This document shows, piece by piece, positions 4,800-61,285 of a stretch of DNA of 64,000 bases. Source of the stretch: Fragilariopsis cylindrus CCMP1102 (Eukaryota > Bacillariophyta > Bacillariophyceae > Bacillariales > Bacillariaceae); the NCBI GenBank assembly GCA_900095095.1, contig FMBT01000358.1:1-64000 (forward strand). Direction: 5' to 3'. Both the position numbers and the translations under genes were made by a program. Numbering within the stretch: the first letter of the stretch is position 1; each line of letters starts with the position of its first letter. The notes below the pieces were generated by a model, which worked only from the letters and a program-made list of their open reading frames with translations, searched no databases and had not been told where the DNA came from.

Positions 4800-5666
4800 C
4801 ATATATATACATACATATATATATACATATATATATATTTATAATCATTATTCCATGAAACAAATCACATAAATAGTAGTTCCGTTCATTTAAACGAATC
4901 AAATACAAATCTAAAAGATGAAATAAACTTCTACTACAATGTTTGCTGATATCATTTGACTGCATGTTTGTTAACTTCATTTTCATTTTCATTTCTGTGT
5001 ACGATATAGTAGGCCAAATGCAATACAGTAATATTACATTCTATTGGCATCGGTTTTAATAAAAGTTCTCCTGTTCCAGCAGATTTTCATCGCTATGATT
5101 GATGACAAGCTTTTAGTGACTGGCAATAAGTTAGCTAGCTAGTAGAATATGAATCAACACCATCATACTTTTCTTCTCATTTGAAGAATAAAACCAAAAT
5201 GTTCAATCATTCGATTTGTCATGTCATGTCAGTTGTGTACGCGATTGTGGTCCTAGCAACGAACTGTGATTATAACCTGTGACTTCAGAAAAGAATCAAA
5301 CCCATAGTGTATATTTACATACAAACATACACACACATACACGCACAAATATATAGATATAGATATATAGTTATTCTTTTCTCATAGATAACGATATTAA
5401 TTAAGTATAAATGGAAACATTCAATTTCGGTGATTCTGCGATAATATGCCAACAAGCGCAGAAATGGAAATAAAATTCTTTTTTTAAGTTTACTTTGATT
5501 CATCTTTCAATTCATAATACCATGTCATCCATTTTTAACCTTCCGGTTTCTTTCTTCTATATCTTTTTTCAATTATCGATAAATTGTATTTCGCTCGCCG
5601 ATGTAAGGGTTTAAATTTTCATTATAAACAAGATCAACACCAATAAACAGTAATAATGTATTTCTT
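4614..5666. other. Convergent intergenic stretch rich in TA repeats
   Basis: About 1.05 kb between the convergent I29 and mitochondrial-protein genes, so it should contain both 3' UTRs. It is very AT-rich, with alternating TA/ATAC tracts from about 4768 to 4840 and a CA/TA tract near 5320-5370. I see no gene-like frame and no RNA gene. Confidence 0.5.
4768..4840. repeat. Imperfect (TA)n / (ATAC)n microsatellite
   Basis: Long alternating TA run from about 4768 to 4797, then interrupted ATAC/TATA units to about 4840. It lies in the 3' flank of the I29 gene. Confidence 0.85.
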
Positions 5667-6761
5667 TTACCACATTGCAATACGACGTTTCGTGCTGACA
5701 AGGTTGACGTTACCACCGATAGGAACTGGCAAACCACGGTCCTTGTACCATTTAAAAAGTTCTTCTTCATGTGCCTGCCAAGTTGGTGTAGGGAGCTGTT
5801 GTTTATTGATTTTTATTTTAAGTTAAAAAAGACAAAGAATGACATGAGATGATGTTAATATAACGACGATGATGATAACAGCAACTATTACCATTTAATT
5901 AGGACAGTGAATATATTATTATTGATACCCATGCATATGCAGTGATGCCTTTTTGTTATAGTTTGGTCATAATGCGTGCATACTACTACAATCCGTGTCA
6001 TTATTGCAGATAAATTATAGAATGAATATAAAACTTACATGGTCCGGCATGTGTTTGTCTAATGACTTGAATAGTTCTTCATTGTTCACTGCCATAACGG
6101 CACGTAATCCAGTCGGATCGAAGTCAGATGGGCCTGTTGCGAATTGACTTTTATTACCAGGAGAACTTGCAGGACCGATTGCCAATTGTTTCTTCGCTTC
6201 TTGTACTTCTGGATCATTCGGATCTTGCATATCCAATTTTAATTGTTCTACATCAGGATGTGGAAATTCCGGATCGATGTATCGGCGTCGAGTATCACGT
6301 TTGAAATAACCAGTATCGTACGGATCAGCATCTAGATCGTCAAGTGGAACATCTACGATTGGTTGTGATCCAGGTGAAATTTCACGATACGAGGCACTTT
6401 CTTTACCATCCTTACTAACTATGGTACGGGTATCAGGATATGGCACCTGATGTAAGTTATTCGGATCTTCCGGCCAAAAGTAAAAGTAACCCTTAGCAGC
6501 ATCAAATTTTTCAGGTGACATTTTATCCCTCAAAAGACGTTCGATCCATCCTCTCCATGGCATAAGAGATTCCTTACTAGTTTCTTTAGCAGGTTGAATA
6601 TAAGGTGCCTCTTCTTTACTAACAGCACGGGGGAATTCAAGTTCCTTCCTTTGTATTGAAGCGCCTACGGCGCCGCCAGTGGTTGTTGCAGCAGCCTTAC
6701 TCGCATTTTGTACGATCCTGGTGGCAGCGTAACTAGCCTTTCTAATTGCGGTGATTCTCAT
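5667..6761 (-). CDS. Predicted mitochondrial protein of unknown function
   Basis: Two exons on the minus strand, 6761-6039 and 5795-5667, joined in phase 0 (HMPDH | LPTPTWQAHEEE) give 283 residues. The first ~45 residues are rich in Arg/Ala/Ser/Thr with almost no acidic residues (MRITAIRKASYAATRIVQNA), typical of a mitochondrial presequence. The mature part is soluble and Pro/Asp-rich, with blocks such as MPWRGWIERLLRDKMSPEKF, GYFYFWPEDPNNLHQVPYP, FPHPDVEQLKLDMQDP and the C-terminal HEEELFKWYKDRGLPVPIGG. I do not recognise the family. The C-terminal half reads like a conserved structural subunit, for example a lineage-specific respiratory-chain or ATP-synthase accessory subunit, but that is only a guess. 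The gene diverges from the Sar1-like gene across 389 bp. Confidence 0.75.
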
Positions 6762-7150
6762 ATTTTATTAATGTAGTAAGTCTTTTATTTTAGACCATTA
6801 GCTCAATTGAAGTTCAAAGTAATGATTGCTTCTCGATGTTCATTCAATGAAGTGTACAGTATGTTATCGCCTTCTTCGCTCCTGAAATTCTTCATAACGC
6901 GCCACGTTCGTTCGATCGTGTGTTTACAGTGACTTCCCCCGAAATGTTGTCCCCCAAATTCGAATATATTGAGATGTATTAGTATCATCATGAATAAAGT
7001 TTCCGAAGAAATTAAAAATAGCAGAATGTTATTGTTGTGTCAAACAACAAAAACATAGACATTATTGTCTACAATACATACCTCATGCCGATAACGACGA
7101 CGACGACGACGACGACAAGAAGTTCTTAAATTTGCAACGTAAACATTAAA
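6762..7150. promoter_or_regulatory. Divergent promoter region, mitochondrial protein / Sar1-like gene
   Basis: 389 bases between two divergent start codons, so both core promoters must lie here. A short (ACG)n tract sits at about 7094-7117, just before the Sar1-like start. No other motif is convincing. Confidence 0.4.
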
Positions 7151-7731
7151 ATGATATTCCAATCAATATACGAAACATGGAGATCACTCTTGGATACATT
7201 GTGGAAGGCATTAGGCTTTGAAGGGAAGGAGGGTTCCTTAGTTGTTTTGGGTCTAGATAATGCTGGCAAAACAACGCTGTTACATCGATTACGGACGGGT
7301 GGTGATGTTAGGTCCTTTCCACCTACGGATCGACCACATCAAACAGAAAAATTTGAATCCAAAATATTAAATTCCAGGCCTGGGATATGGGTGGCCATGA
7401 GGCAGTTCGACATTTATGGGAAGATTATGTATGTGAATGTTCGCTGTGTTATTTTTAATTGATGCAGCTGATACAAAACGACTGGAGGAAGCATCGTTTG
7501 AACTAGATGCATTAATTGGTGAAAAGATCGTGAAAGGATTGCCTGTTGCGATACTGTTGAACAAATGTGATTTAGAAGAAGAGGCAATGTCAACGACAGA
7601 GATATGTAAACGATACAATACGACGATCTTCGAAGGATGCAGGGGAAGATAATATATCAATATTTCGGATATCGGTATTACGTGGAGAAGGGTACCAATC
7701 AGCATTTCGGTGGATAGCTGATTTTTTATAG
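7151..7731 (+). pseudogene. Sar1-type small GTPase with three frameshifts
   Basis: Read across three frames, this encodes a Sar1-family GTPase, the COPII coat initiator on the ER: an N-terminal amphipathic stretch (MIFQSIYETWRSLLDTLWKA), Walker A GLDNAGKTTLLH, switch II WDMGGHEAVRHLWEDY, the guanine motif NKCD, and the C-terminal GEGYQSAFRWIADFL ending at a stop at 7729-7731. The frame breaks near 7355 (one base short), near 7433-7440 (one short) and near 7631-7636 (one extra). The total length of 581 bp corresponds, after those single-base changes, to 193 codons plus stop, exactly Sar1 length, so all parts are present and the damage is recent or artefactual. The sequence is divergent (WDMGGHE for FDLGGH; an extra CKRYNTTIF segment), suggesting a second, specialised or relaxed paralogue. 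I call it a pseudogene because three breaks in under 600 bp exceeds the rate elsewhere in the window. Confidence 0.6.
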
Positions 7732-8139
7732 TATAATATTCTGCCAACAGGTCATGAAGAGAAGCTAGCTGTGTATGAGTACGTCATAAGGGATGCGTCT
7801 CTGACTAGCTTATCTAAATAGTACTAATCGTTCACTATTTGAACAATGAACTATGGACATTTAATAATTCACTCTCCTGATACATGCAACCAGTGAGATT
7901 TAGAAACCGATCGATATTATTCCATAATACACACTACTTAGAGCTAAGATATAGATACATGTAACAATTGATTTTTTTAATTTTCATAACTAGTCGACAC
8001 CCCTCAATCAACTGTCAGGTGTTCTGTTACATAAGAATGTTCTTCTCTGGTATTACTTGTGTCGGATTTTCGAGAGCAATATCATGTACTGCGGCTTCTA
8101 CAAGTTTTCATTTCATTGTCTGTTACGTCTATAGTTGCG
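7732..8139. other. Convergent intergenic stretch
   Basis: About 400 AT-rich bases between the end of the Sar1-like gene and the end of the membrane-protein gene. Nothing recognisable beyond the expected 3' UTRs. Confidence 0.45.
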
Positions 8140-9897
8140 TTACATCGTTTTCAAATAAAGGACGAGAACAAAGAAGATCTTAACAAGAACAAATAGATAA
8201 GTTTCAAACCCATACCACTCATCAGGTATTTCTTCGTGCGTCTCTGTGACAGTTTGAGAACCGTCTGCGTGTCGTATTGTTTCAACGACTTTGATTTCAT
8301 CTTCTGTCACCTCTGTAATAACTTCACAGTCATCTCCAGCTCCTAGGCCTGGGTGAGCAACAAAGTCATCATCGATTTTTATCTCTCCTTCCCGCTGATA
8401 TCCATCTTCGGCGATTTCTTCTGTTGTCTTTGTTACAGTTTTAGTACCATCAGCGTGTGTGATATCCTCGACGATTTTGACTTCGTCGTTTGTTACCTCG
8501 GTAACGACCTCACGGCTGTCACCAGCTTTTAGTCCAACCAATGTGTTGAAGTCGTCATTATTAATTTGTCGAACCCTATCAGCAACAAATGTTCCACCCG
8601 CGGCGACTAATCCTTCCTCGTGTTTGTCTTCCACCACTTCTTCTTCTATTTCTTCGAATGAATTGTTATTGAATTCATCAATACTCCTCGTGACATTTTC
8701 GTGGTTACCACTGCCAGAGCCGTCAGAACCATCATTCATGAAAGCACCGGTGGTGTAATAAGCAGGGGCCCCGGACGAAACATTATTTGATTCATTATTG
8801 GTTCTCAAACCGTCATCGGGATTGCCACCAAAATTTCTATACCCGACCTCCTCATTTTTACTTTCTTCTCCCATGGCGGTTGCAACTTTCGACTTTGTTG
8901 TCACTCCAGGAGCTAACACGGCTGTACTATCTGGGGCAATTTGTTGTTGTCTCGCTTTCAATGGTGACGATGATGGGAAAGAAGACGTTTTCTTCTTGTT
9001 CCAACGTGGGCCAGGATAATCCTGTGTACAGCAAAAACATAAGCCCGATAAAAAGAAGCAACCCATTGATACGACACTGAATCCCGCAGATCGAGAAAAT
9101 GTACATATATATTCTTCACAGAAATCATTATTAGAATCAAATGTATAGAAGGTAAGTCCCTGAAGTGTTGTCAACACCACGCATAGGAATACTGTATTGA
9201 AATATCGTACCCCACGAGTTTGTGACGAGCACGTGAACGATAGAAGGTAACAGAAGAAAAGAAACGACAAGGACGAGCTCAATCCACCACAGATCCTGGA
9301 TATTTCCCAATCTTTTCCTAAAGTATCGGTGAATGTTTGTATTTGTTCTTCCGGATTCGAGCCCCTCATTGTACCAATAGCATGATCTTGATAGCATTAT
9401 GGATTATGGGTCCGAAGAAATGATAATGATGATAATGATAATAATATTAAAAACGAAGATGTGAGCTTTATTTATCATCAACAATGCAGTAATTAGAGTA
9501 ATATTTAACAAGTAACCAAATAATGCAAATAGAAGAAAGAAAGAAAGAAAGAAATCGAAGATACAATACAATGCAATACTGCAATGTACTGTACTGTGCT
9601 TACCCGTCGAGTTTTTTCCATGTTAAAAATCCTATATATTGTGTTTGTGTAACATCAATTGGAAGATTAATACCACCTTCACCGTCGATATCATCCGGAA
9701 GAAATAAACGTTCATTTAATTCCATAAAGCTACAATCACCTAATGCTGCTATTGAAAAGAACATTCCAATCATAGCCAGGAGTTGTACTCCAACTATTGC
9801 AACCCATCCATTCAAATAACCGCAACCTTAATTTTTTGTTTTTAGAAAGATAGAAATCAACGAAGACGACGAAGATACAGATAAGATGACGTTGAAG

Positions 9898-48201: not shown

Positions 48202-49263
48202 ATGTCCGACCCATCTGATAAAAATGATGACGACGGTGGACGTGATGCGTATGAATTTGTTGCTTTCGTGTTATGGTATGTGGCGATGGTAAGCAATTCT
48301 AAGAAAGAAATGTTCGTGCAACGTATTTATTTGTCTACATTTCATCTCATCTTTTACTGTTACGATCTTAGCTGACTGATATAGAATCTGACACTTACCT
48401 TCATACACTTTTTCACACGATACTTTTACAATGTATACGATACGCTAGGTTCTTTGCTGTATCGTACCAACAACTTGTTCGTATTATCGTCGACGACGGA
48501 TAGAGGCTCATTATTATCATCATCATCAACAAAGTGCAATGGAAATGTATTTACGTGGAGAAGAGGCGAACGAGAGCGCTGAAAATAATGGAGATCCATC
48601 AACGACGACGACGATGATAATGAGCGGTAGTAATAGTAATATCATTTTTTTGTCATCACCCTCCGGTAATGTATACTATGGTGGAGCTTCGATGAGGACA
48701 ACGAATCAGGTATTGACACTGCAAAGCTTAGAGGGTGATATTGCAAAAGCAGAACGCAAGAGACGACTTGAGGTTGCAGTAGAAGATACAAGCTTCATAG
48801 TAAAATCTGGGGACATTATTCTTCACCACGATATTGATATTGATATTGACGACGACGACGACAATCAACACGATGATGATAGTAATGATGTCAAAGATGT
48901 CAAAGATGTTGGCGACGATAAGGGTGGATCAGAATATGAGGAAGACATCGACATCGAACATGGAATAGAATCGAGCATCACAGTTGACGTAGACGACAAC
49001 GACAACAATGCAGAACTACGATTGCCATCTTCTTTTGTCATTACAAACAGCCAACAAAAACAAACTGAACATACTAAGATAATAAGGAGGAACGTTCCTG
49101 CCGTTTGTGCTATCTGTCTTGGAAATTACGAGGTCGGAGACCGTGTTACTTGTAGTCCATTCCCGACAGTTGTACCAGTATTAGTACAAAATATGGAGGA
49201 GGAAGAAACGCAACAAACATCAGCATCAACAACAGCAACAGCAACGATAACAACATCCGAGGA

Positions 49264-49329
<66 letters not shown>

Positions 49330-49739
49330 ATTGTCATTGTCATTGTCATGCTGTTCACATGCATTCCATCGAGATTGCATTATACAATGGTGTGCGAAAA
49401 AGAATAATGCGCAACCCGATTGTCCCGTTTGTCGGCGGACATTCTGCACTGTTATACCTCTTACAACAGCGGACCTAATAACGTTAAATAATAATAATAA
49501 TAATAATAATAATGCTGCTGGAACAACATCATCATCAACAACAGCAACAACGACAACGACAGAAAGTCTGTATACTCAGAACACGATATCGTCGTCGATA
49601 AACTTCGGTCGTCAGATTCCGATGATAGCCTTACCAGTAAATAATACGTCAGATAGGATGGTGATGATCCTGCCAACTCCTGATATGACTGTCTTTCACG
49701 GACATCATCATCATAATTATCACAATCATCGTCAAACGC

Positions 49740-49770
<31 letters not shown>

Positions 49771-49849
49771 CCGACAAAGCGCAAACACCACCACCACCAC
49801 GACAACGACGGAGGATTCGAATACTTCTACTGCTCGTGATCACAGATAA
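48202..49849 (+). CDS. Membrane-anchored RING-H2 E3 ligase with poly-Ser insertion in the RING
   Basis: Two exons, 48202-48288 and 48449-49849, join in phase 0 (WYVAM|VLCCIVPTTC) to 495 residues. The short first exon is easy to miss: it gives an acidic N-terminus (MSDPSDKNDDDGGRD) and half of a membrane helix, and the second exon completes it (YEFVAFVLWYVAM plus VLCCIVP) followed by the stop-transfer YYRRRR. The cytosolic part has a RING-H2 finger: CAIC at about 249, then CSHAFHRDC and CPVCRRTF, giving C-C-C-H-H-C-C-C ligands. Between the second and third zinc ligands lie about 85 residues, with a run of some 25 Ser, far above the usual 9-39. The C-terminus is Thr/Asn/Gln/His low complexity. 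RING-H2 membrane proteins are E3 ligases for membrane or secretory clients; the target is unknown. Confidence 0.8.
49264..49346. repeat. (TCATCG)n / (TCATTG)n repeat coding poly-Ser
   Basis: About 11 TCATCG hexamers followed by TCATTG variants. The repeat is in frame and codes the Ser and Ser-Leu run inside the RING-H2 domain. Confidence 0.9.
49738..49769. repeat. (CAA)n repeat coding poly-Gln
   Basis: About ten CAA codons in the C-terminal tail of the RING-H2 gene. Confidence 0.85.
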
Positions 49850-50424: not shown

Positions 50425-53400
50425 TCATTCCTTCTTTGCGCTATCTTTGGTTGTTGACTTTGTCTGCTTTTCGTTATTCGAAGGAGGCTTGGTGACTGAA
50501 GTCGGCGGAGGAGGGATGTAGGCTTGTACTGTAGCAGCTGCCACAGGTGGGGGTGGGTTTCGATGCCGCTGCTGCTGCTGCTGCTGCTGCTGATGGTGTG
50601 GAGGTACAGTAGTATTCACAGGTCTTGGTGCCACAGGTCGGACAACGTTAGGTGGCACAGGTGAAAATACAACAGGTGCTCCTCGAACAGAAGATGTTGG
50701 TTGAGAAGAAGGGGGTGGATATCGATGCTGATATGCAGTGTTATCTGTTCCATGCCGTCGTGAAGAATTATTACTAGTCGTTGAGATATCTCCCCGTTGC
50801 AAACTACCGGTTCTCACGACGGTGGCGGCAGCGGCGGCACCACTTCTTTGCTTGTCAGCTAAATCCAGGATTTGAAGAGGCCACATTTCAGTTCTTCCAC
50901 TCGCCCATAGGGCTGTAACCGATGATTGAACAGACTGCATGTGAGACGGATGGGATGGAACAGGATGTCCAGCTTGATTCTCACCTGCAACAACTCCGGG
51001 TATAGACATAGGAATGACCTGTCGCCTTGATCTGGAAATGGACATAGCAGAGAATGACCGCCTCTTGGGTTTGGGTCGATCTTGAGGTGGAAGCCTATCG
51101 GTCATATCTACGTCTGGAGTAGCTCCTGCCGACTTGTTTTTACTGTCACAAACAACATTACTTGATTTATGGTCGCCTGTTGCATCATCTTGCTTCTTGT
51201 CAACAGTATTACTAATTGAAGATGCGATTCCATTTGGTACGTCATTTACAATATCCATATCATTTCTCGTTCCATCTTCTTCATTCTGATTATCTGTATA
51301 TGTTTCTCTCGTCTGGGTAGGATTGATGAAGTTGGAAGATTTAGATAGAATGGACACTCTAGCAGCCAAGCGGACTTCGACTTTTCCCTCCTTGTTCGAT
51401 TCTTTGTTGGTTTCGATTTTGTCGCACCTCAACGATGCGTTTTCACGAAACAGTCTCTCTGACTTTCGAACTTCGTTTGCAAGAGAGGGTTCATTTTGAG
51501 CGAGAGCTTGCCATCGATCACGACATTGACGAGCAGACTTTGGAATGGAGGGAACTAAGCGCTCTATACCTGTAAGACTTTCATTGGTAACTACGTGTTC
51601 GAAACCGCTCATTGCGCTTGCAACAAGTAGCCAATTCATACCAAACTTTTTCGCAGAGTCTTGGAGAATTTTGTCATCTCTTAAATTCCACGAGGATAGA
51701 ATTTTCTGTTCTCTAGTCGGTTGCATGACCTTAACACCCATAGGCAATGAAACACCTACACGAAAACGTGGAGTGGATATACCAGTCATTCCAGATGGTG
51801 ATGCCAGGTATCCGACTTCAAAAGCGCCAAAGTCAACACAGCGTGGTGAGACCAACGACCTTCGCAGTTCTTGTCTTTGCATATTTGACTGAAATATTGC
51901 AGTATCGCCTGACATTGAACCATCCTTCAATTCTTCTATGATACTGGCCCAACCTTGACAAGGACTATTCCGGTCTTTATCAATCGAATATGATTCTTCT
52001 ACCAGTTGTATCGGTAAACCAGGACCAGAGTCGTGCGTTAGTGTAGATTTCCACATCAATCTCTCAAGCCGTTCTGCCACCCTCCTTTCTACACGCATCG
52101 CTGCTACTCTATATGGAATTGAATCAAAGAGTGTCAAACCAGTAATTCTCTGTCTTGCATAGTATGAAGCAAGTAATTTGTGCCGATGATCGCCCTTCAT
52201 CTGTCTTGAGTTTGCCGGAAGAGGCGACCGAGGTACAATTTGATTGAGCTGGGCACCCACACTACCAGGAAGTCTCGTAAAGGCAGTATGTGGCATTTGG
52301 GAACTCAGTTGACTTCCTCTCTTTCTCGTTTTCTTGCCAGATTCGTCAGCACTCGGATCCTTGGAAGACTTATTTCCAATCGACAAAGGAACGATGCCGG
52401 ATGCGCCTTGAGCAAATCTGTAGGATGTTTGTGATTCCAAGTAACTCATAGGTCGCTTCTTGACAAACAGAAGTACGGACTGCATTCCTTCGTCCATATT
52501 TTCCAAGGCTGAAGTACCAGTTTCTTCTGCATCGCAAGGGAAATTGAAAGACGTAAAATCGTATCTGTTGTCACAAAATATGGCTGAATTAGTCGCTTTT
52601 GTATCATGGACCGAAAAAGAAATTGCATCAATGGGTTTAGGAATGGCCCCAGCTCCTAACAAACCAAAATCTTCTTCGATCATTATGAAGCCATTCGATT
52701 CGTTTTCGTCAACTTTGCTTTCAATTTCAGAATTGGGTCCAACTGCAACAGTCTTCGTTATTGCATTGTCTATCACCACCTTTTCCTTAGAGACGACTGG
52801 AGTAGATCCATTGGTTTGTGCCGACGACTCAGGTGCAATTGCACCTACAGAAGATAGAGCATTAACATGTCCGTTCATCTCTGATGGAGGGGATTGTGTC
52901 TTCAGTCGTTTGAGATCAGGTTTGACATCGGCATGAACCTCAGTTAATCCTCGATCCTTTCTCTTCAGAAGTTGATCATTTTCTACGTTATCATTTACTT
53001 TAGCGGCTTCCTGAGGATTTGAATCCACTTTGGATGACGAGGTAGCTTGGTGACCAATTCTTGCCCTCTTGGAGCATTCCTCGAGCAGCGGGAATAGTGG
53101 AGGAAAGAATACGAGTGGTTCACAACCTTGATTCCCATCTCTCACATTAATTCCATCCCAACTGCTACTAAATATCTTTGCGTAAGCGTTGTATCGTCGT
53201 TTACTATTGATTTGGAAAAGTTCCTGACAAGGCTCATAAAAAAGCAAAGAAGAAGGATTTCCATCAATAGCTGGATCAAGAGGTACTTCGTCTACATCAG
53301 CAGAATCATTCGTGAACGACCCCATCGGTTGCAATGACTGGCTCGAGGAATTCACTCCAAAGTTGTTGGAAACTGAATGAGATTCCATGAGCTTCTCCAA

Positions 53401-56400
53401 GAAGAGTCGGGATGCAATCACGGGCAAATCTTGACGACTCATGGATCCTGCTGGCAATGTACTTCCGTACGAAAGTAACGTCGGAGTCATCGAAACTTTT
53501 TCCAGTGCTGATAACTGAATTGAAACCAATGAAGATGTTTGTTCTTTCTGCAAGAAATTACGCAAAAATTGAAGTTCTGTTGTAATTTCTTCTTCGTTGA
53601 TAGCAGGTTTAATTGTATAGCTATTGCGTCTTGGTAAAAATGTTGCTGCTTCACCTGATCCGAAAAATGAAGGCATGTTCCTCGATGACGCGAGAACATC
53701 TGATAGTAAATCTCCTCGCTTTTTCAAGATATCTACTGCAGGAAAAGAAAAGTAAGACGGTGCATCTCTTTCGATCAAAAGCCTGTAAATTTTCAAGGCT
53801 TCGTCTTGTGAACTAGGTATAGTCAAGAATCCTTCACTATCCAATGGCCAAGCAAAGGCTCCTTTGTGATTGTTACAATCACTGAATAATTTTGATTCCA
53901 CCGAATCAGCACAGACAAGTCTGATTAATTTATCTTCCTTGCCAACAAGTTCGTTTTTCGCACGCCACCGTCTAATCAGAGAATCGACGATGTACCCGTC
54001 TCTCCCAGACCAATCACTATCCAATGTAATGATCATATCGGCGCCTTCAACCCCAAGACCACAATTCCGCCCAAAAAACACCGCAGGGGCCGCAACAATG
54101 ATATTTGTCTTTCTAGAATTCTTTTTATCACAAAATCTTGACAAGGCACTTTGCGATTCTGCCCATGCAGTAACTTCGTGTCGTTTTTGATGATGATCGA
54201 GATTTGAGCACAGTGATACATCAAGTTTGGCATTCTTTCCGCTTATCGCATATGACGAGTCTCTACGAAACAATTCATTTTGTATCCCCAGCGAATTTAA
54301 AAGCGTAGAGACAAGGTGCTGTATATCAGGAAGAGCTGCGAAAATTGCTACCTTCTTGGCAGATTTTTTTGTTTTGTTGTCTGTTTTGACGTCTCCATTT
54401 AGCCCTAACAACTTTCGGGTGCTTTCATCGCAATTAATACTATATCCACCCTTTTCGACGAGGATCAAAACAAGCTCCTTAAGTTTTGCAGAGCTCCTAA
54501 GAATAGAATATACACTATCAAAGTCAGGCTGAGACGGATTATTTCCTGCATTCAGACAGGATGAGTGTCCGTTGTGCGATGCAGAGGTTGAATGGATTTC
54601 AAGTCCCTTCGCATGGAAACAATGCTGCCTCAATCTAAAAAGAGCGTTGGACGCAACAGAAATAGAACGACGATGGCTCGAACTGGATTTTTTGGGATCA
54701 TCCAACAAGGTCAAAGATAATGCCCCTCTTACTGCATAACAGCACTTTTCGTATTCTTCACGTTGAGCACTGCTCATGGTACATGGTCGCAAATCCCACT
54801 TGAAATCCGAAGATGAAACAATTTGGTTTTCAACACGAAAACACATTGGATCAATGACATCACTAAGCACGTTTCTTATGCGTGTTGCCTTATCGGTAGT
54901 ACCGTTCTTTCCTCTTTTTCGAGCCCATGAAATGACTTGTCGTTGAATTGAATGAGATCCTGAATCGAAAATTTCTGGACCAATTATGCATGCTGCTCTC
55001 TTCGCAAGGATCCTAATTTGTTCTTTCTGTCCTAGACCACATTTCGACAAAGAAAGGGGGTCTGCATCGCAATAGTCGACGAAAAGGCAGCGGGTGTCTC
55101 TTTTTTTACTGACAGCTATGATGTCGCCCCACCAATTATTCGACAGTAATTCCGGTGGAAAATGTGGGTCAACTCCAGATGAAGACGAAGAAGTACCAAG
55201 TGATTCTAGAAGACCGTGGAAGTGGCGAAGATCTATAATAACTGAATAAAGGGAAACACTCATTGCATTCAGAATACTTTTCATTCGATTGACTGTGGAA
55301 TATTCGCAAACAATCACATCCGCAGGTTTTATTTCTCCGACATCGTTGCTGCCATTAGGATTACTAATACCGCCAACCAAACCAAACGTAAGAACGCGGA
55401 TATTTGAAAATAGATTCAGCTCGTGTTTCCAGCGAATCTAAAAGACAGATGTGAGAAGTTATCTTATTACAAGGAGAAACAATAGGAAAATTAAAGATAG
55501 AAAGAAACGAAATTTTATCATTGAATACTTACCATGCTCCTTGGCGGACAGATCAATAATTGAGGTCCTTTCGTTCGTTGTTTCCAAATTATAGTAGCTG
55601 TAGCAAAGGTTTTTCCAGATATTGTCGGACCTAAAATCATAGCACTTGTGCACGGTTTCCCCGACCACACTTTGTCAACGAAGTCAATCATTTCTTTCTG
55701 TTTGGGGGCAAGTTTAATATTACCAGACTTAAGTGATTTTGTCGTTGACTCTCTCGTCGACGACTTGTATCTTGATCTGCATACGTTGTGAATATTATCT
55801 ATGTAATCGTTAATACTATCAAAGTTTGAGTCCTTCAATCTGCTATCATCTTTATTGTTGTTATCCACGTCTATCATATCAACGGTATTTGCCGTGCTTG
55901 TCGTATCTTCGTCGTTTTGTTTGATCGGCGACAATTTGTCGTTTGGATGATTCTGCGTTGCCAAATATTTGGATGTTGATATTGCTGTCAATTTTTCAAG
56001 GATATCTGATCGAGTCGAGACAAATTGTTTCAATGCTGCTTGGTGATATTTATCAGAAACTTCAAAAGATCCACCTTGCTTTATTGCAACATCCAATTCT
56101 GAAATCATACATGATAATATTTGACTATTCGACTTGGCAATATTCTCATCCTCAGTTGCTGGAGGCGTATATCGACGACGGGTATCTTTTTTATTCAAAT
56201 GTTTTGTTTCTCTACTACTATTTGGATTGTCCAAAGAACTGGCAGAGAGCGCTATATTATCGATATGGAGATCTCGAGAAGCATCGTGGCTGATAACTTC
56301 GGCGGACCTTTTTCGACGGTCTGATGATATTCCCTGCGCAGGAATCTTTGATGATATAAGACGCGCAGTAGATAACTTCCATTTCCTTTCTTCCATAAAG

Positions 56401-58079
56401 TCAGACGCTAACCATGACATTTCTTGCAGTAACGTGTCCCAATGAGTCTTCCGTCTTTGCGGTAGTTGTGCCGGGGATGGAATTTCAAGTTCAGTAGTGA
56501 CATTTATTTTCTTCTTCATTAACGGTTTACTTGTAACGCCACCAGCAGTAGTGACTGCACGCCGAGCATGAGCTTCATCATCAAAATTCGACTTCATCCC
56601 ACCTCCAGACATTGTCATTATCGATGGATCATTACTGTGTTGTTGTCTTTCCATTAGATTCCGCAATTTCATTTGGACCTGATCTCGTTTCTCACGAAGC
56701 AATATTGCCTCAGGAAAATGTACTTTTGATGATGCTGATGCTTGTGCCAAGGATGAACGAGGGTTGAAATTATTTGTCGTCATCATCGTGGGCCCTGCAC
56801 TCTTATTTGTATTTTGATCGGTTCTAGCGATTATACTTGATGTAGGGGCGAGTTGTTGGGATCCACCTGATTGTCCTGACAATTTGTTGGACGTTTTATT
56901 ATTTTTACTATTCGGGGGACGTCCTCGTGGTTGCGGTCGCGGTACTTCAGACTGCTTCGTAGATTGTATTGGATATGGAGTTACTTTATTCGATTTTGGA
57001 TTGCTATTATTCGCTTGTACGACTGTTTTTGTATTTGTTGTTGTTGTGGTAGAGGTACCAATCGGATTGACTGGAAGACGTGTAGCTTTTTGTGATATAT
57101 TCGATTTAGAGGAAGGGGAAACCTTTATAGCTGATTTCGTACTACTCGTACATTTATCACTTACAGATACAGAAGTTTGTGCTGCTACATCATTACTATC
57201 TACTGCATTAGCATTAGCATTAGTTGTTAGGTTTGATCCCGGTACAAGTGACGAAAGCGCGGCATTCATCCGTTTTCCAATATTTGATCCTCGTCTTAAT
57301 GATAGAGACGTTCTCTTTTCATTTGTACCACCTTTACCGTCTCCATCACCTCTATTATTTTTCCTAGCCGCTTGATTCGCCCGTTTCGTCATGTTCCGAA
57401 ATGCAGCAATTTCTTCGTCGTCTGTAAGCTCATTATTACTATTATTCCCCTGGCTTTTCGACGAGAATTCCCCAATACGTTTTTCTGCTGATGATCTACA
57501 AGATTTAACTCTTTCCAATAACATAGATCTATGCAAGATCATATCTTGCATTCTTTTCTCACGACGATGATGGTTGTCGTCGTCGTCATCGTCGTAGCTC
57601 GCAGTATGTAGCGCATGCCTTCTCGTTGTCGACGTTCCATCTTCACTCGAACTGCAACTTGATGAAGCATCTAAAGAATTCGTATTAGATTTTTTATCTG
57701 TCATATTTTCATTAGATGAAGAAGATGAGGAGTTGTCGACCTTCTCCTTCTCATTATTTTTGTCGTTGTTGATTGGTTCCTGCACCTTTTTCACTCCAAC
57801 CTGTTCGTTCGTATTTTTCGTCCCTCCTTTCTCTCTCGCTACCGTTGGGAGCTGAGACGATGACGAGGCTTCTGTTTCATCTGATGCTGATGGTTCTATT
57901 GCGATGTTATTAGTAATTGGTGTTGATCGAGAGACGTTGTCAGCTGTACTTGTACTACTTGTAATGGCACTATCTTGCGCGGAATCGGGTGCCACTGCGC
58001 GCTGCTGCCGGTTCGAAGCAGTCGAATTAATACCAGCCTTGGAACCTCTCTTCCGCTTATTATTTTTCGTGGACGACAT
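50425..58079 (-). CDS. HSA - degenerate SNF2 ATPase - SANT protein (EP400/Swr1/Eaf1-like)
   Basis: Two minus-strand exons, 58079-55533 and 55437-50425, join in phase 0 (CPPRSM|IRWKHEL) to 2519 residues. A long disordered N-terminus precedes an HSA domain at about 540-590 (HWDTLLQEMSWLASDFMEER, KWKLSTARL), the actin/Arp-binding module of chromatin remodelers. An SNF2 ATPase homology region starts at about 790: KQKEMIDFV, a perfect Walker A GPTISGKT, QLLICPPRSM, IRWKHEL, ADVIVCEYSTV, and a Walker B position reading SVIIDLRHFHG (DLRH, no catalytic Glu). The second lobe is only traceable (MSSAQREEYEKCCYA, ALFRLRQHCFHA, ITLDSDWSG) and lacks the QxxGRxxRxGQ arginine-finger motif. A Myb/SANT domain lies at about 2095-2180 (WNLRDDKILQDSAKKFGMNW, ARQCRDRWQAL). 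Gln/Pro-rich C-terminus. Domain order matches EP400/Domino, and Eaf1 minus ATPase; the likely role is a NuA4/SWR-type scaffold. Confidence 0.85.
50568..50592. repeat. (CTG)n repeat coding poly-Gln on the minus strand
   Basis: About seven to eight CTG/CAG triplets that code the HHQQQQQQQQ run near the C-terminus of the HSA/SANT protein. Confidence 0.85.
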
Positions 58080-58747: not shown

Positions 58748-61285
58748 TTATTTATTTTTTGTGACGGAGGAGGATGAGAATGCTGCGCCCCGTGTAACAT
58801 CTCCCTTCTGAATTGCAATTTCAGTGTGTAAAAATTTAGCGGCTTCCGAAGACGCACGGACTTTCGTAGAACTTCGATCCATCATTTCTTTCTCGTATAA
58901 TTCTAATGCATCTCCCAAAGATCGACCTTCACGACAATGAACTCGATATAGAATACGGGCCAGTGACAGGGCATCTATCAGTGCTTGATTAGCACCCTGT
59001 CCCTTAAAGGGCGACATTGGATGTGCAGCATCACCCAGAAGAGTTGTCGGCAGAAAAGAAAAGGAAGAAGAAGTCGAGGCAGAATCAGTCCCGGTAGTAG
59101 TAGTGAGTAGTCGCGGTATTATTTCTCTTCTTCGTGATGTCGAAAGAATCTCTGCTGTGAGAAGATCACGATCATAAACAGGATATCCCGAAACCAATTC
59201 GATGGGTGTTGCGTTTAGGATTTCTGGGATGGGGACATGCCATGATTGACACCTCCTCAAAGCTTCGTCTTTAAGAGCCTTCGGTCCACGTCGAGACAAG
59301 TCAAGGGCGATTTCTTCATCGGGAATAGGAAAACTAAGTTGCCACATATATTCGTTATTTTTCTTTGAGTAAGGCATAAGATAAATTCGAGTTGTTCCAT
59401 CTGCAGTCTGAAAGACAGTTTCTCCATCTAAAAGTGCAGATAACTGTATCTGTTTCTGCTTTTGCTGTTGTCGCGTCAAATTTGTCGATTCTTGCTTGAA
59501 TAGATCTCCAAGGGAACATATACCAAGAATAACAATGCAGTGCAAGTAACGAAGAGGTGTGATTTGTTTCACGATTCCTTTTGCTTTTGTTGCAATGGGT
59601 TCAGTAAATAATGGAACGCCATCGTTATCGTTATCACTATCAGTATCATCATAATTGCTATCATCTTTTCCGTTATGATTGTCCTCATCACCTACTCGTA
59701 AAAATTTCTCTCGCACGGATGAAAATATCCCATCACATCCTACAACTAGATCAGCTTGTGAGGTCACGACGCCTTGATCGTTTCCATTCTCATCTATGAC
59801 TTGAAAAGATAATCCCACTTTTGGCTGTAGAAGATAGGGCGCCGAGGTTGATGATTGTTGTTTCGTTTCAGATTCTATCTTACTAAGGTTGGTATTGTCT
59901 GTCGTACACATGTTATTCGAACTATCTCCAAATACCGGTTGGATATCCACTAGTTTGTGACCCCACGAAATATCAGGACTATCGTCATTATTATCTGCAC
60001 TCGCCTCCTTCAACGCCTCATATAATACATAACGTAGAGTCTGTCTTGGTACATGCAAATTTTGTCGTCGCTTTTTGTTCTTACCGCGACTAGATTGCGG
60101 TTTGATCCTGTTCTTCGTTTCGTTCTTCTCGTTTTTCGAAATGTATGTCTCGTTGTTGTTCTTATTATTGGCTTCACCGGTCCATTTTCGAAGACCCCAT
60201 TCCCCACAGATCGAACCGTCTGGTGTATGCACTACGTGCTTGGTTGATGTGACCGCATGCTGTTGCAGTATTTTACCGCTGCCGCTGCTTCTGCTATTGT
60301 TATTGCCATCATTGTCGTCGACGCTGTCGCTATCCTCATCATTTTCGACGATGCCAAGGGCTCGTAATGCCCTTCTGGCTTGTTGGAGTGTTAACCCGTA
60401 CTTTTGAATTTTACGATAGATGAAGGGAGAAAAGAGAATTCGTTAGTTCTGGTCACTTGCATGTAAAAGATCTAAACGAAAATATCTAAACGTTTCGTTT
60501 GTACCAAAAAATAAATAAAAAAACTTACACCTTGCGACCGTTGATCGAAACGAGAGTCTTTCTCAAAAATATGAAAGGGAATCTGCCGATGTCGTAAGGC
60601 TACTGCTAAGGCCATGCCACCAATACCACCACCTATGATAGCAACGAATGGAGGATGATTTCGAATTGGATGAGTGATGCGTCGGTGTTTGTTACGGAAG
60701 ATATTGTTCCGTTTTTGCTCGATGGTATCAAGAGACCAGTTTGATCACAAATTTACACGAGTCCCATCGTCTTGGTAGCATTGAAAAGGGTCGTGTTTTC
60801 ACTTCATTGTCTTTGTTTAATAAATTATTTGTTGTTCTCGTTGTTGTCGTCGTCGTCGTCGTCGATGGTAATCCCGATGGTGATCGTTTGACGCGCTTGT
60901 GATCGTTATCATTCTGCTGTTGTTGTTCCTCCTCCTCCTTTTGTAGTTCAATAAGTCGTTGGTGTCGAAGCCTTGATTTTTTCGATGGAGCCTTAGAAAT
61001 TACACCCTCACCATAGCACTTGGGGCACAAGATCGGGACAGCGGAGGACAGCATTTGAGTGGGAGAAATTTCAGCAGTGGCGGAACCGGTATCGAGATTT
61101 ACATCGGCATCGGTCCCAAATTCGTCGTTGTTGACGCCATCCTTCTGTATGGGAATTATAGAAGTAGTAGGGATTCCGACGTGTGGATACCCGATGAATC
61201 TGATGACGAACGTTGAGCGCAGTACATAAATCTTGATTGATATGTAAAAGCACAAGTAAAGATGCAGTTCGAAACATGACATGTG
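58748..61285 (-). CDS. FAD-dependent monooxygenase with N-terminal CxxCxGxG zinc-binding segment; two frameshifts
   Basis: Minus-strand exons about 61285-60529 and 60400-58748 join in phase 0 (RSQG|YGLTLQQARRAL). Exon 2 is clean. Domains: CPKCYGEGVIS and CKFCDQTGLL, a split DnaJ-like CxxCxGxG pair; then the Rossmann FAD motif VAIIGGGIGGMALAVALRHR, FEKDSRFDQRSQGYGLTLQQ, DLVVGCDGIFSSVRE (DG motif) and LLGDAAHPMSPFKGQGANQA (GD motif). This is the class A aromatic/isoprenoid hydroxylase fold (kynurenine 3-monooxygenase, zeaxanthin-epoxidase-like); substrate unknown. To connect the three parts of exon 1, one A must be added to the run at 60749-60751 and one to the T-run at 60712-60716 (plus-strand view). 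Without these the FAD motif has no start codon. The N-terminal ~45 residues are hydrophobic (CFELHLYLCFYISIKIY), possibly a targeting signal; the start at 61285 is provisional. Confidence 0.7.

Follow-up and report, generated by a model that had tools for sequence, protein, structure and literature searches.

What kind of protein carries an HSA domain, an SNF2-type motor and a SANT domain in the order known from EP400, yet has lost the catalytic Glu of that motor? The question is raised by a gene on the minus strand at positions 50425 to 58079 of the window, the whole stretch of 64,000 nucleotides of Fragilariopsis cylindrus CCMP1102 contig FMBT01000358.1 analyzed here. We propose, with a probability of roughly 65%, that its product is the platform of a diatom NuA4-type histone acetyltransferase complex in which the SNF2 motor has turned into a pseudo-ATPase. 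The proposal starts from the gene itself, its domains and their order, the losses in the motor motifs, a separate intact Swr1 in the same genome, and matches to other NuA4 genes.

The gene is read as two exons joined by a consensus intron and encodes a protein of 2519 amino acids (aa). Its main parts are as follows.

50425..58079, minus strand: whole gene, two exons, 2519-aa protein; ATG at 58079, stop at 50425-50427
55533-58079, minus strand: exon 1, 849 codons
55532..55438, minus strand: intron of 95 nucleotides, GTAAGT...TTTTAG, consensus
50425-55437, minus strand: exon 2, 1670 codons plus the stop
56343..56462, minus strand: HSA domain, aa 540-579 (Pfam PF07529, 3.1e-10, above the cut-off; found by the genome search at C760:56343-56462)
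53860..55712, minus strand: degenerate SNF2 motor, both lobes, about aa 790-1375, with the intron inside (Pfam for lobe 1, a profile built from the same genome, hhalign)
51502..51690, minus strand: SANT/Myb domain, aa 2099-2161, with an insertion of about 20 residues (Pfam Myb_DNA-bind_6, PF13921)

The start and stop codons agree with the coordinates of the first-pass annotation. Open frames of this length would be expected by chance at about 7e-20 and 2e-38 for the two coding stretches, and a codon score derived from four further SNF2 genes of this genome ranked the annotated frame best of six, the degenerate SNF2 part included.

When the HSA domain alone was compared with solved PDB chains, EP400 gave the best match (2.9e-9), with SRCAP at 9.2e-7 and Eaf1 at best at 5.6e-6; an EP400-like stretch precedes the domain, from about aa 526. 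The SANT domain scored 1.2e-5 on a cut-out piece (25.8 bits, cut-off 22.9) and 8e-4 within the whole of exon 2 (20 bits, below the Pfam cut-off). Together with a Pfam SNF2-rel_dom match on the spliced lobe 1, these matches bear out the order HSA-SNF2-SANT that had been claimed for the protein. Two further Pfam matches in exon 2, to ICA69 (0.0043) and to an emaravirus protein (1), both below their cut-offs, were taken as chance, and an NCBIfam scan of three stretches gave no match.

The middle region was harder to recognize. Pairwise similarity is very weak, a Pfam scan of the long exon gave no SNF2 match, and a 571-aa piece gave one of 0.026, below the cut-off. On the spliced lobe 1, SNF2-rel_dom reached 4e-7 (29.8 bits, cut-off 24.9), the best stretch being aa 822-918, which begins at the G of GKT and ends with the Asp of DLRH. 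We also scored the protein with a profile that combines six of the genome's own SNF2 domains, one pair of which is 99% identical. It gave 26.4 bits for aa 770-1420 and 21.2 bits for the whole protein, while the controls for aa 770-1420 reached at most 4.3 bits with residue shuffles (849 of 2000 scored), 12.1 bits with 15-mer block shuffles (1788 of 2000 scored) and -2.9 bits for the reversed sequence. Lobe 1 alone scored 20.4 bits against shuffle maxima of 1.8 and 8.7. For lobe 2 alone the score was 16.8 bits, with maxima of 6.6 (residue) and 17.9 (15-mer block), a level reached by none of 2000 residue shuffles and one of 2000 block shuffles. In agreement with this, hhalign matched aa 1065-1373, the inter-lobe part and lobe 2, to the same profile with 95% probability (reversed, 1%). 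An hmmalign of the spliced lobe 1 confirmed the placement of motifs Ia, Ib and II, but Walker A came out displaced, and neither motif III nor the inter-lobe helices were aligned. As judged from these profile comparisons, SNF2 homology spans both lobes and lies between HSA and SANT.

The motor motifs were then placed as follows.

55698..55712, minus strand: Q motif LAPKQ, aa 790-794, Gln kept
55608..55631, minus strand: motif I (Walker A) GPTISGKT, aa 817-824, P-loop intact
55222..55233, minus strand: DLRH at aa 918-921, motif II (Walker B), with Leu in the place of the catalytic Glu but Asp and His retained
55069..55086, minus strand: position of motif III, probably LFVDYC in place of LTGTP, aa 967-972 (by eye and in the tree alignment)
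54835..54855, minus strand: SNF2-specific inter-lobe helix IDPMCFR, aa 1044-1050, counterpart of LRPFVLRR
54613..54633, minus strand: LRQHCFH, aa 1118-1124, counterpart of LRKVCNHP
54010..54060, minus strand: motif V region GLGVEGADMIITLDSDW, aa 1309-1325, partly kept (GLG...GAD...DSDW)
53968..53985, minus strand: motif VI remnant DSLIRR, aa 1334-1339, one of two arginines kept

The Gln of the Q motif lies 28 residues before GKT, compared with 26 in five of the genome's own rows, among which one pair is 99% alike. Walker A had been described as perfect, which holds for a generic P-loop; it is not the SNF2-type DEMGLGKT. DLRH aligns with DEAQ, DEGH and DEAH of the paralogues in the genome, and the Pfam match ends at its Asp, so the absence of the catalytic Glu from Walker B is confirmed. 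Had the true Walker B been sought in another segment, no other candidate lay in range: between the P-loop and aa 1420, DE dipeptides occur only at aa 1186 and 1394, none up to aa 1185, and both were rejected as lying outside lobe 1. A DEAH at aa 501-504 was likewise rejected, since it precedes the HSA domain. For motif III, three alignments put different stretches at the position, and TGTP is kept in none. In motif VI, DSLIRRW, which starts at aa 1334, lines up with QDRAHRI, the tree alignment being shifted by one residue. The arginine fingers had been reported as not found; the first is indeed lost (Leu-1336, or Ser-1335 in the tree alignment), but the second is kept in both alignments (Arg-1339 or Arg-1338). 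The motif set of an active remodeller is therefore not intact: motif I is kept as a P-loop, II lacks its Glu, III is lost, V is partial and VI has one Arg. With Glu, LTGTP and one motif VI Arg gone, the ATPase is degenerate, as the first-pass annotation had held, and the pattern of residues may fit a protein that holds ATP without hydrolyzing it.

A further question was whether the genome has a second, intact Swr1, and one was found on contig C91. Its motifs are complete (GLGKT, DEAQ, LTGTP, DRAHRIGQ), its exon 2 matches SRCAP (6.9e-212) and SWR1 (3.5e-192), and its SNF2 domain measures 751 aa, 221 aa longer than that of the Brm-like gene (530 aa). A genome-wide HSA search gave five places, which we read as three genes: the window gene twice, Swr1 once, and twice a Brm-like gene with SnAC and a bromodomain on contigs C182 and C339. 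A Pfam scan of two Swr1 exons and one Brm-like exon gave no SANT/Myb match. By this HSA search combined with Pfam, the window gene is the only HSA and SANT gene found, which makes it the best candidate for the NuA4 platform, the Eaf1/EP400 role. Other genes of the NuA4 and SWR1 complexes have matches in the genome: Swc4/DMAP1 (90 bits), YL1 (39 bits), Eaf6 (37 bits), Epl1 (34 bits; a single stop interrupts the match, as across an intron) and MYST acetyltransferases. A FAT search gave six matches; of the three checked, one is Tra1-like, one TOR-like and one TOR/ATR-like, and the segment with Tra1 as best match reached 8.1e-16.

We infer membership of the complex. In the yeast and human complexes, the HSA carries Arp4/actin and the SANT contacts Tra1/TRRAP (PMC9643008, PMC7047200, PMC11995519). 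By analogy with Eaf1 and EP400, the HSA helix of the diatom protein would carry actin/Arp4 and Swc4, and its SANT would be the docking site for Tra1. The SNF2 fold that separates the two could serve as a structural spacer or as a nucleotide-holding element, in which case ATP would be bound but neither hydrolyzed nor used for DNA translocation. H2A.Z exchange would be left to the separate intact Swr1.

Comparison with known platforms shows where the protein fits and where it departs. Like EP400/p400/Domino, the platform of the TIP60 complex, it has the order HSA-SNF2-SANT, an HSA best matched by EP400 (the stretch upstream included), and a long C-terminal part with the SANT far downstream of the motor. 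Unlike EP400, whose motif II DEMQ retains the Glu, it has DLRH; it has no RuvBL-sized inter-lobe insertion; aa 1380-2095 have no detectable similarity to EP400, and the SNF2 region is 18.9% identical. The first-pass annotation had set the protein against an active EP400. The Glu of DEMQ is present, but the EP400 chain in the PDB is itself off-consensus in motif III (LLLIDSPLHN) and motif VI (AQEWCDRIGR), so this contrast is less sharp than claimed. In EP400, the insertion domain and the motor sit with an AAA-ATPase hexamer (PMC11995519). At the site of the EP400/Swr1 insertion, only some 40 aa separate LRQHCFH from the SSAKL of lobe 2, so the diatom protein probably does not carry the AAA-ATPase (RuvBL) ring. 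Another additional stretch, a few tens of residues long, directly precedes KVAIF.

With Eaf1/Vid21/AtEAF1, the NuA4 platform, the protein shares HSA and SANT with no working motor as judged by sequence, a separate Swr1 in the same genome, as in fungi (PMC4358907, PMC6089883), and the presence of histone acetyltransferase-module genes (Epl1, Eaf6, MYST and Tra1 matches). It differs in having a two-lobe SNF2 remnant between HSA and SANT, whereas Eaf1 reportedly lacks an ATPase domain. Swr1/SRCAP/PIE1 proteins also have an HSA followed by SNF2, and plant PIE1 has a SANT as well (PMC4358907), but the motor motifs here are degenerate, the long inter-lobe insertion is absent, and the intact Swr1 is a separate gene. 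Because one feature of Eaf1 fails (the absence of a motor) and two of EP400 fail (the catalytic Glu and the large insertion), we assign the protein to neither; that it is a variant of the Eaf1/EP400 platform kind is partly supported. The family placement proposed earlier stands as far as architecture and the HSA ranking go; with regard to the SNF2 subfamily, the tree leaves the protein unplaced. The literature searched, in the portions available, held no description of a gene of the type HSA-degenerate SNF2-SANT.

Several results weigh against the NuA4-platform reading. The HSA match spans only positions 4-44 of the 71 in the profile, and the HSA alone tells EP400 from SRCAP and Eaf1 by rank only. 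The SANT piece had 14 PDB matches at E-values up to 10, led by Myb proteins, with EP400 and Eaf1 not among them, so that the SANT is no help in naming the family. Downstream of the motor, aa 1380-2095 matched neither EP400 nor any other solved chain in the PDB at E-values up to 10. Pfam gave no Helicase_C match on lobe 2, and the window gene was not among the 85 matches of a genome-wide SNF2 search carried out exon by exon. In SNF2-region identity to eight sequences, which lies within 18.9-25.4%, the genome's own Swr1 is highest and EP400 lowest. The best tree groups the protein with Brm-, CHD- and Mot1-like rows, not with Swr1/EP400 (support 63/69), on a branch of 2.66 substitutions per site, 3.6 times that of EP400, the next longest (0.74).

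Among the alternatives, the gene could be a paralogue of Swr1 origin whose motor was lost and which serves a chromatin complex other than NuA4, with an HSA that still binds actin/Arp4. We consider this unlikely. The HSA does match SRCAP as well, and the SNF2 region is closest to the genome's own Swr1 (25.4%, against 18.9% for EP400, all eight values lying within that span). The window protein, however, has a SANT/Myb match where the two scanned Swr1 exons have none, and it lacks the RuvBL-type insertion. Moreover, such an origin would leave the genome's Epl1, Eaf6, MYST and Tra1 matches with no other HSA-SANT gene found for NuA4.

It is less probable still that the motor is a divergent ATPase that hydrolyzes ATP through other residues. 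The replacement of the catalytic Glu by a non-polar Leu, where EP400 retains DEMQ, argues against it, as do the loss of motif III and of the first motif VI Arg and a branch so much longer than that of EP400. On the other side stand the kept P-loop, Q-motif Gln, Walker B Asp and second motif VI Arg, and EP400 being likewise off consensus in motifs III and VI.

A decaying pseudogene, or an error of gene model or assembly, is very unlikely in view of 2519 stop-free codons, the consensus intron and a coding signature across the SNF2 part. The identical copies of the gene offer no allelic test of conservation, and the second is perhaps not independent. The gene is present twice in the assembly, on C760 (the window contig) and on C711, with 100% identity over 8651 base pairs, so that no substitutions can be counted and an allelic selection test is impossible. 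Least probable of all is an unrelated P-loop protein between HSA and SANT that resembles SNF2 by chance. In its favour are the generic nature of the P-loop GPTISGKT, the very low pairwise similarity, and the failure of Pfam to recognize lobe 2, besides its weak sub-cut-off matches to ResIII and DEAD in lobe 1. SNF2-rel_dom at 4e-7, the colinear inter-lobe helices and motif V, and scores above the shuffled and reversed controls speak against it.

If the protein is a NuA4-type platform with a decayed motor, it bears on the evolution of the yeast and human platform proteins. On the prevailing view (Auger et al. 2008, as quoted in PMC4358907, PMC6089883 and PMC9643008), EP400 is a merger of Swr1 and Eaf1. 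In plants, an HSA-SANT protein (AtEAF1) occurs alongside one of the order HSA-ATPase-SANT, PIE1 (PMC4358907). A BLAST survey reported homologues of Eaf1 and of Swr1 from green and brown algae; in Acanthamoeba it listed a p400-like protein, and in 'molds' a p400 orthologue beside a Swr1-like protein (PMC6089883). The EAF1 of Plasmodium is reported to be 4.7 times the size of the yeast protein and to have no SANT (PMC11036802), and a Tetrahymena review describes alveolates as having no clear Eaf1 or Epl1 and NuA4 as poorly conserved beyond opisthokonts (PMC7339932). Given this plant, algal and alveolate background, the occurrence of an HSA-dead SNF2-SANT protein together with an intact Swr1 suggests loss of the motor from an ancestor of the order HSA-SNF2-SANT, one that would have been EP400-like. 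The tree, however, cannot test such a descent, and its grouping and the 18.9% identity of EP400 lean the other way. Whether the protein is an evolutionary intermediate between EP400 and Eaf1, as first proposed, is not established, since no orthologue was found and the SNF2 tree leaves it unplaced; we treat this as a hypothesis.

A more general and tentative suggestion, which we regard as possible but rather doubtful, is that Eaf1-type platforms arose when an EP400/PIE1-like ancestor kept its scaffold ends while the motor died, the P-loop here marking a nucleotide-holding pseudo-remodeller within a histone acetyltransferase. If true, at least some Eaf1 proteins would be products of ATPase loss, the reverse of the model of Swr1 and Eaf1 fusion. 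A NuA4-type platform with a dead SNF2 beside a working-looking Swr1, far from animals and fungi, makes this reverse direction, motor loss, testable by a comparison of stramenopile orthologues. Should the P-loop still bind ATP, NuA4 would have a nucleotide-responsive part, which the available portions of the cited work do not mention. The platform candidate and the genome's Epl1, Eaf6, MYST, Tra1 and Swc4 matches also speak against NuA4 being poorly conserved beyond opisthokonts, an older remark of PMC7339932 against which plants (PMC4358907) and Plasmodium (PMC11036802) already speak.

Searches beyond these genes gave the following. A paralogue search of the genome with 1446 aa of exon 2 returned only the gene itself and the C711 copy. 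The contig pairs C711/C760, C182/C339 and C384/C409 show equal-score matches that recur on the second contig, which, together with the identical copies of the window gene, suggests redundancy in the assembly. A search for orthologues with exon 2 and the HSA piece found none in viral and prokaryotic contig collections, which is uninformative on diatoms. A genome search for DBINO (INO80) gave no match and is uninformative, as the positive control was equally silent. Silicon transporters, a family that marks silicifying algae, gave 27 matches in the genome, the top one at 757 bits, which points to a diatom as the most likely source.

At the Swr1 locus (C91:715500-725400), the plus-strand frame at 8892-9647 resembles, by eye, right-handed beta-helix repeats. 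The preceding stretch, 5618-8851 on the plus strand, carries WW (3.6e-4, below the cut-off) and F-box-like (2.5e-6, above it) matches after the helicase, and the Swr1 gene may be a larger fusion. In the window, the two frames neighbouring the gene were assigned by eye.

48539-49849, plus strand: zinc-finger protein of the RING type, with long runs of Ser, Asn, Gln and Thr
58748-60442, minus strand: next frame upstream of the gene, FAD-dependent monooxygenase-like

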